From Acidobacteriota bacterium (GTDB taxonomy: Bacteria > Acidobacteriota > Vicinamibacteria > Vicinamibacterales > UBA2999), in assembly GCA_963169195.1 (NCBI GenBank), contig CAUJDN010000099.1, positions 1 to 64,000 of the forward strand: a stretch of 64,000 nucleotides of DNA, written 5' to 3'. The notes beneath the pieces are model-generated. The model was not told the DNA's origin and did not search any database. It saw only the letters and a list, made by a program, of their open reading frames with translations. Positions 61 to 1,391 of this stretch are shown here, piece by piece; the first letter of the stretch is position 1; every line of letters starts with the position of its first letter. The position numbers and the translations under genes are program-made.

Positions 61-225
61 CGAACCTCCGTGCTTCGAACCCCCGTGCCTCGAACCTCCG
101 TGCTTCGAACCCCCGTGCTTCGAACCTCCGTGCTTCGAACCTCCGTGCTTCGAACCCCCGTGCTTCGAACCCCCGTGCTTCGAACCTCCGTGCTTCGAAC
201 CCCCGTGCTTCGCCCCCTCGTGAAG
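61..225. repeat. 15-bp tandem repeat array (10 units plus a degenerate end unit)
   Basis: Ten head-to-tail 15-bp units of the form CGAACCYCCGTGCYT run from 61 to 210. A degenerate unit starting CGCCCCC follows at 211-225. The same unit, with the same kind of CGCCCCC end, occurs inside mutL at 22805-22924. The array ends just before the ribosome binding site of the oxidoreductase gene at 234. Units are multiples of three, so the array is open in several frames, but I do not regard it as coding. Confidence 0.97.
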
Positions 226-233
226 GAGCCCCC

Positions 234-1391
234 TTGGATCGTCGTTCGCTGATTCGCAACGGAAGCCTCGCCGCGCTCGGTCTCGCGGCGGGCGCGTGTG
301 CTCCGCGGACCGCTGCCGTGGCCACGCGACCGGCCGCGCGACGGCGGCCGCCGGTGGTCCTGCCCCACGTCAAAGCGTCGTGGGATCGGGTGATTCGGAC
401 GACCATCGGCCTCCGACCGCACCGCCCCGCCGGCTTCCTGCTCCGCGCCGACAAGCTGGACGCCAAGACGCTCATTCACAACTACGGCCACGGCGGCTCC
501 GGGATGTCGCTGTCGTGGGGCACGGCCTCGATGGCGGCCGACATGGCCGTGGCGCATGCCGATCGCCGAGCGGCGGTCCTCGGCGCGGGCGTCGTGGGGC
601 TGACCACGGCCCGGGAACTGCAGCGCCGCGGCTTCGAGGTCAGCATCTACGCCGCGGCGGTGCCGCCGGACACGACGTCGAACATGTCCCTGGCCGGCTG
701 GACGCCCACCTCCGGCCTCTCGCAGGCCGACGCCCGCACGCCGGAGTGGACGACCCAGTTGCGGCAGGCGGCCGAGATCGCCTATCGGCGCCTGCAGCTG
801 CTGGTCGGCTCCAGATATGGCATCAGCTGGATCGTCAACTACGGTCCCACGGAGAACGAGAAGGCGGCGGGTGGCCGGAACATGCTGCTCCCCGAGAGCG
901 TGCAGACCGGGGGAACGCTGCTTGGCCCGGGCGAGCACCCCTTCCCCACGACCTATGCCGTCGAGCGGCCGGAACTGCGGATCGAGCCGTCCATCTACCT
1001 GGACGCCCTGATGCACGACGTCGTCGACTTTGGCGGAACCCTGGTGATCCGGAAATTCGAGACACCCGCGGAGGTGGCGGCCCTGCCCGAGGGCCTCGTC
1101 GTGAACTGCACGGGCCTCGGCGCCGGAGCGCTGTTCGGCGATTCCGCCATGATTCCGCTGAAGGGCCAGCTCACGGTCCTGGTCCCGCAGCCCGAGATCC
1201 AGTATTCGACCAGCGGCGGCGCCCGTGTCCAGACCGCCGAGCCGGGCATCGGCATTCACATGATGCCCCGCTCCGACGGCATCATCCTGGGCGGTACGTC
1301 AGAGCGGGACGTGTGGACCGTCGACGTGAACGAGAAGGAGCGCCAGCGCATCGTCGAGGGACACATCGACCTCTTCAGCGCCATGCGCTGA
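234..1391 (+). CDS. Tat-exported FAD-dependent oxidoreductase, D-amino-acid oxidase-like, apparently circularly permuted
   Basis: The 385-residue protein resembles D-amino-acid oxidase (DAAO), which oxidatively deaminates D-amino acids using FAD. It starts at TTG 234, supported by AAGGAG at 223-228. The N-terminus has twin arginines, a hydrophobic stretch and Cys22 after Ala-Gly-Ala, suggesting Tat export and possibly lipid anchoring. The order of motifs is odd. GLRPHRP (residues 59-65) and HNYGHGG (82-88), which end ordinary DAAOs, come before the Rossmann motif GAGVVG (117-122). The chain then stops after a segment (MMPRSDGIILGG and on) that in DAAO precedes GLRP. All motifs lie in one uninterrupted frame, so this is not an assembly artefact of frame. 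Substrate is unproven. Confidence 0.85.
   Translation: MDRRSLIRNGSLAALGLAAGACAPRTAAVATRPAARRRPPVVLPHVKASWDRVIRTTIGLRPHRPAGFLLRADKLDAKTLIHNYGHGGSGMSLSWGTASMAADMAVAHADRRAAVLGAGVVGLTTARELQRRGFEVSIYAAAVPPDTTSNMSLAGWTPTSGLSQADARTPEWTTQLRQAAEIAYRRLQLLVGSRYGISWIVNYGPTENEKAAGGRNMLLPESVQTGGTLLGPGEHPFPTTYAVERPELRIEPSIYLDALMHDVVDFGGTLVIRKFETPAEVAALPEGLVVNCTGLGAGALFGDSAMIPLKGQLTVLVPQPEIQYSTSGGARVQTAEPGIGIHMMPRSDGIILGGTSERDVWTVDVNEKERQRIVEGHIDLFSAMR

Follow-up and report, generated by a model that had tools for sequence, protein, structure and literature searches.

D-Amino-acid oxidase (DAAO) is a textbook flavoenzyme with many uses in biotechnology. Descriptions of its family normally give a single, fixed order of segments: the dinucleotide-binding motif GxGxxG starts the chain, while GLRP and HNYGHGG end it. 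The protein studied here, encoded near one end of the window (the whole stretch of 64,000 nucleotides of DNA that was analysed), has all its segments in common with DAAO and D-aspartate oxidase (DASPO) (PF01266; human DASPO, 6RKF; human DAAO, 2DU8; Rhodotorula DAAO, 1C0P). These enzymes are indeed its best matches in both Foldseek and phmmer, and the shared motifs comprise GxGxxG, (T)TS, NCTG, GLRPxRP with the substrate Arg, and HNYGHGG.G...WG. Unlike them, the window protein is bacterial and predicted to be extracytoplasmic, has a permuted order and a putative Tat/lipoprotein signal, and carries His where human DAAO has Tyr228. The canonical bacterial DAAO-like proteins come from Streptomyces, from Tsukamurella and, in the window's phylum, from 7 of the 247 genomes sampled. 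They possess the same subfamily motifs, with about 30-37% identity over the shared main domain, but they keep the normal order, with GHGG about 285 residues after GxGxxG. None of these 7 genomes is in the list of those holding the permuted form. DadA-type dehydrogenase and glycine oxidase ThiO share the DAO superfamily and the FAD motif, but the window protein falls far below the cut-offs of their NCBIfam models (29 and 47 bits vs 383 and 251, respectively). We consider it very probable that the gene encodes a naturally circularly permuted, FAD-dependent oxidoreductase of the DAAO/D-aspartate-oxidase branch, which would be exported by Tat and would act on D-amino acids or acids of a similar kind. 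What is new is the architecture, together with its spread, in an enzyme family that is itself known; no description of a permuted DAAO, or of a permuted FAD oxidoreductase, was found in the open-licence papers searched.

The coordinates of the gene and its features are listed in Table 1. The frame is open and complete, and its TTG start lies in a context (TTG and AAGGAG) that is identical in an ortholog from an independent assembly (L012, 93% identity), while the comparison of start sites showed an M-[DN]-R-R opening at the equivalent place in other homologues. The N-terminus combines the sequence features of a Tat lipoprotein, namely a twin Arg, a hydrophobic stretch and a Cys in a loose lipobox (AGAC). 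It reads as a Tat signal, possibly that of a lipoprotein, in line with the twin-arginine signal proposed in the first-pass annotation. Across the family, a simple pattern picked out the RR and the hydrophobic stretch behind it in 85 of the 88 scorable distinct members (about 97%) and a lipobox-like Cys in 60 of 88, strict motif patterns having missed a few members. The proteins that Tat carries across the membrane are already folded and loaded with their cofactor, a mode of export that fits a flavoenzyme. Just upstream of the gene, near the contig end, a 15-base tandem repeat (CGAACCCCCGTGCTT) occupies positions 61-212 of the window in ten copies, and several of its frames are open.

Table 1. 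Features of the permuted DAAO-like gene and its product (window positions; residue numbers refer to the 385-residue chain).
Feature	Position	Strand	Basis
Shine-Dalgarno-like AAGGAG, 5 bases before the TTG	223-228	+	Read directly; kept in the L012 ortholog
Whole open reading frame, circularly permuted DAAO-like protein (putative flavoprotein), 385 aa	234-1391	+	Sequence, phmmer, Pfam
Twin-arginine-type signal MDRRSLIRNGSLAALGLAAGACA with lipobox-like Cys22 (297-299)	234-302	+	Sequence
Pro/Ala/Arg-rich linker, predicted disordered	303-368	+	Low pLDDT, model residues 1-28
Permuted block, residues 46-106, equivalent to the DAAO C-terminus	369-551	+	DAO profile 300-353 (C99:369-545); DASPO 280-334
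GLRPHRP, residues 59-65	408-428	+	Sequence; Arg61 at 414-416
HNYGHGG, residues 82-88, flavin/substrate loop of DAAO	477-497	+	Sequence, family alignment
New junction: old C-terminal helix, short loop, old strand 1	552-563	+	Homologue spacing; model
Main part, residues 111-385: N-terminal and central portions of the old chain, with the FAD Rossmann and substrate domain	564-1388	+	DAO profile 2-297
GAGVVG dinucleotide-binding motif, residues 117-122	582-599	+	Sequence, family alignment
His342 at the place of human DAAO Tyr228 (carboxylate-binding)	1257-1259	+	Family alignment

The order of these motifs is the reverse of the canonical one: GLRPHRP and HNYGHGG precede GAGVVG, at exactly the residues given in the first-pass annotation, and the main part of the protein has no C-terminal GLRP/GHGG block of its own. 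When the protein was compared with the PDB by phmmer, D-aspartate and D-amino-acid oxidases came out as top matches in two pieces, residues 111-371 aligning with human DASPO 13-261 (i-E 1.3e-9) and residues 54-105 with DASPO 280-334 (i-E 8.7e-6). The two pieces thus stand in exchanged order. Judged from these alignments, the swap is far beyond chance. The Pfam DAO model (PF01266) likewise matched over its whole length in two stretches (99.6 bits vs a cut-off of 27.9), and in the whole-genome profile search positions 300-353 of the profile fell upstream of positions 2-330, the latter starting from base 570. The same PDB search was then fed a de-permuted query, with residues 110-385 written first and residues 40-109 last. 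Its residues 3-341 aligned with DASPO 14-333 in one envelope, at 72.1 bits vs 40.7 and 28.1 for the pieces, and human DAAO was aligned over 2-328. Undoing the swap thus regains a normal full-length DAAO, since the match becomes a single continuous one. The same segments are present in one chain and only their cyclic order has changed, as in a natural circular permutation. Its reversed order sets the protein apart from ordinary DAAOs, and it was classed with a sister clade of permuted proteins.

The prediction of the structure points in the same direction. AlphaFold was run on the mature chain with 10 sequences, once with and once without the moved block, using the same relatives in both cases. 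The full mature chain was modelled with moderate confidence (pTM 0.73, mean pLDDT 70.8), and all the best Foldseek matches of the model were DAAO or DASPO. Omission of the moved block lowered pTM to 0.43 and mean pLDDT to 48.6, an indirect sign that the block belongs integrally to the fold. The moved block, the junction and the GxGxxG region are modelled as strand 56-61, helix 72-83, strand 90-94 and helix 98-109 (the model numbering being the residue number minus 22), and the junction, between helix 72-83 and strand 90-94, has a pLDDT of about 90.

These results bear on two structural alternatives. The front block could be a separate small domain that resembles the DAAO C-terminus without packing against the FAD domain, but the predicted fold collapses in its absence, the junction is modelled as strand-helix-strand at a pLDDT of about 90, and the main part would be left without any GLRP/GHGG block; such an arrangement appears very improbable. 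An assembly error, or a chance frame fusing two gene fragments, might be suspected from the position of the gene, which starts 234 bases from the contig end and adjoins the tandem repeat. Full-length colinear homologues are nevertheless found in more than 60 independent genomes, complete chromosomes included, so that an assembly artefact is ruled out and the odds of a chance fusion are practically negligible. The swapped two-piece homology, the restored single match, the comparison of models with and without the block, and some 90 homologues of like order all bear out the circular permutation within one frame that the first-pass annotation had proposed. No permuted-type homologue carries a second GxGxxG upstream, the counter-sign named in that annotation; the only pattern matches were spurious ones due to read-through or low complexity (L010, L121 and the frameshifted L126). 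We conclude that the circular permutation of DAAO is genuine and natural, that it is conserved, and that most members couple it to a Tat-type signal.

The permuted form is indeed widespread. About 90 distinct related proteins from several bacterial phyla carry the same rearrangement, and in nearly all permuted frames the spacing from GHGG to GxGxxG is 34-48 residues, most often 34, with a single case of 70. The window's own genome holds three permuted paralogues (contigs C99, C43 and C35), and seven loci with the same order were found in independent assemblies of the first homologue set. Within the window's phylum, colinear permuted homologues with 34-72% identity occur in 33 of 396 sampled genomes, complete chromosomes among them, and 43 of 200 genomes hold the form in the phylum of G396, the genome with the Gemmatimonadota locus L017. 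The first-pass annotation had taken such permuted enzymes to be rare; among DAAO-like proteins of the window's phylum, the permuted order is instead commoner than the canonical one, and Gemmatimonadota carry it frequently. It also occurs on plasmids of alphaproteobacteria (Niveispirillum, Kozakia, Bradyrhizobium and Rhizobium) and of an actinomycete (Nonomuraea). Viral relatives of the permuted protein were not found, a structure search of viral proteins returning ordinary DAO folds only. One Acidobacteriota MAG has a tandem array of three permuted paralogues with gaps of 3-12 bases between them (L018, 3780-7388).

When 49 permuted proteins, with the swap undone, were placed on a tree together with 19 canonical ones, one branch separated the two types (SH-aLRT 89), a split that shuffled labels never produced. 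With the moved block left out, so that the grouping could not be created by the cutting and joining itself, the same split was recovered with an ultrafast bootstrap of 92, in 94% of bootstrap trees and with an SH-aLRT of 57, the canonical outgroups being few and some of them long-branched. The rearrangement is old and heritable, and not an error. A single ancient permutation, in the ancestor of the whole permuted clade, is probably at its origin, the sequence-based support for this being moderate and not decisive. In the midpoint-rooted drawing, a group of proteins lacking the signal (Nonomuraea and rhizobia) forms the first branch on the permuted side; permutation may have come before export, if this root holds.

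From a functional point of view, the alignment points to a conserved substrate-binding core. Arg61 aligns with Arg283 of human DAAO, the Arg that binds the substrate carboxylate, and is Arg in 92 of 92 permuted and 19 of 19 canonical proteins. The three Gly of the FAD motif are present in all 92 permuted proteins, including the window protein with its GAGVVG, and the GHGG loop is nearly invariant in the permuted family. Taken with established DAAO enzymology, these features predict the oxidation of a carboxylate-bearing amino acid at FAD: the chemistry is probably DAAO-like, and most likely the protein works outside the cytoplasm, where it would use FAD to oxidise D-amino acids or similar ones. 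Tyr228 of human DAAO, the carboxylate-binding Tyr, is replaced by His342 in the window protein; this position is His in 45 and Tyr in 29 of the 92 permuted proteins, and Tyr in 15 of the 19 canonical ones.

The substrate and the electron acceptor leave room for other readings. The same DAAO fold might act on another substrate, such as an N-methyl, cyclic or hydroxy acid or the product of a secreted peptidase, in line with the His that replaces Tyr228 in half the family, with the S9/S15-type peptidase genes near several members, and with the location of the signal-less subgroup, which in rhizobia and Nonomuraea adjoins a TPP enzyme. Against it stands the invariance of Arg61 and of the GHGG loop, which form the DAAO substrate-binding core; we find this reading rather unlikely. 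It is conceivable, though not what we would expect, that the enzyme, with the same permuted fold, is a dehydrogenase whose electrons go to a c-type haem protein of the periplasm or into the quinone pool, and not an oxidase using O2. A cytochrome c gene indeed overlaps the permuted gene, in line, in Kozakia; another lies in line 33 bp away in G457, on the Gemmatimonadota side; and a gene for a Tll0287-like c-haem protein (MCETCHG) overlaps the C35 paralogue in the window's own genome. Among the close in-line neighbours, 3 of 19 encode c-haem proteins vs 3 of 281 in the background, but this association was not replicated in a second set of loci (46 further genes; 1 of 25 vs 6 of 254), and the window copy has no adjoining c-haem gene. 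A cytochrome c operon partner, seen at three loci and then failing in the fresh set, was accordingly retained as a rival reading only.

In the preferred reading, that of a permuted, Tat-exported DAAO-like enzyme, the last strand-loop-helix unit of DAAO (GLRP...HNYGHGG...helix) would have moved to the front, behind the Tat signal, and would be joined through a short loop to the first, FAD-binding strand, so that the new chain finishes where the substrate domain used to end. The parts are predicted to fold into the ordinary DAAO shape and, judging by the motifs, to bind FAD. Tat would export the folded, FAD-loaded protein, which is probably lipid-anchored. A D-amino acid, or an alpha-amino/imino acid like it, would then be oxidised while bound by Arg61 and, probably, by His342, and the electrons would pass to oxygen or to a respiratory acceptor. 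A wider scenario, in which an ancient and widespread permuted clade owes Tat export and lipid anchoring to its freed N-terminus and serves as a periplasmic D-amino-acid dehydrogenase wired to respiration, seems doubtful to us as a whole. How permutation and export are linked can be tested directly. The permutation divides the FAD-binding Rossmann unit, has been kept stably in several phyla and comes with an export signal in most members. It shows how the fold accommodates new termini, and it offers an evolution-tested design for fusing or anchoring DAAO. In profile searches, permuted proteins appear as partial DAO matches, and the active-site block can be missed.

The neighbours of the window gene (an unassigned frame, deoC, rpiB, a phosphoribosyltransferase, an amidohydrolase and upp) belong mostly to nucleoside salvage, which suggests that they form no operon with it; no conserved neighbourhood was found in the window's phylum, and the gene neighbourhoods compared gave no stable pathway clue. 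At the C35 locus, the Tll0287-like gene (L010, 5111-5731, minus strand) overlaps the start of the paralogue by 4 bases, and an X-Pro dipeptidyl-peptidase-like S15 gene adjoins. Some copies are broken or unusual. In Mesorhizobium onobrychidis, the copy falls into two CDS, divided at GxGxxG, apparently by a frameshift (L062, 5920-6983). A frameshift also breaks L126 (G515 C5, Gemmatimonadota side), where the Rossmann part gives way to the substrate part; its genome also holds another, full-length permuted copy (L071). A 733-aa open frame in L144 (G152 C6:11602-12204) contains a canonical-type DAAO C-terminal half and is a possible fusion. Finally, in the signal-less subgroup of rhizobial plasmids and Nonomuraea, the permuted gene directly precedes a gene for a TPP-dependent enzyme (L061, 5926-8690; L155, 5998-8777; L060, 5857-8676; L062, 5920-8782), in what looks like a small conserved biosynthetic cassette; in Bradyrhizobium and Rhizobium, it is also preceded by a gene for an FAD-binding oxidoreductase.
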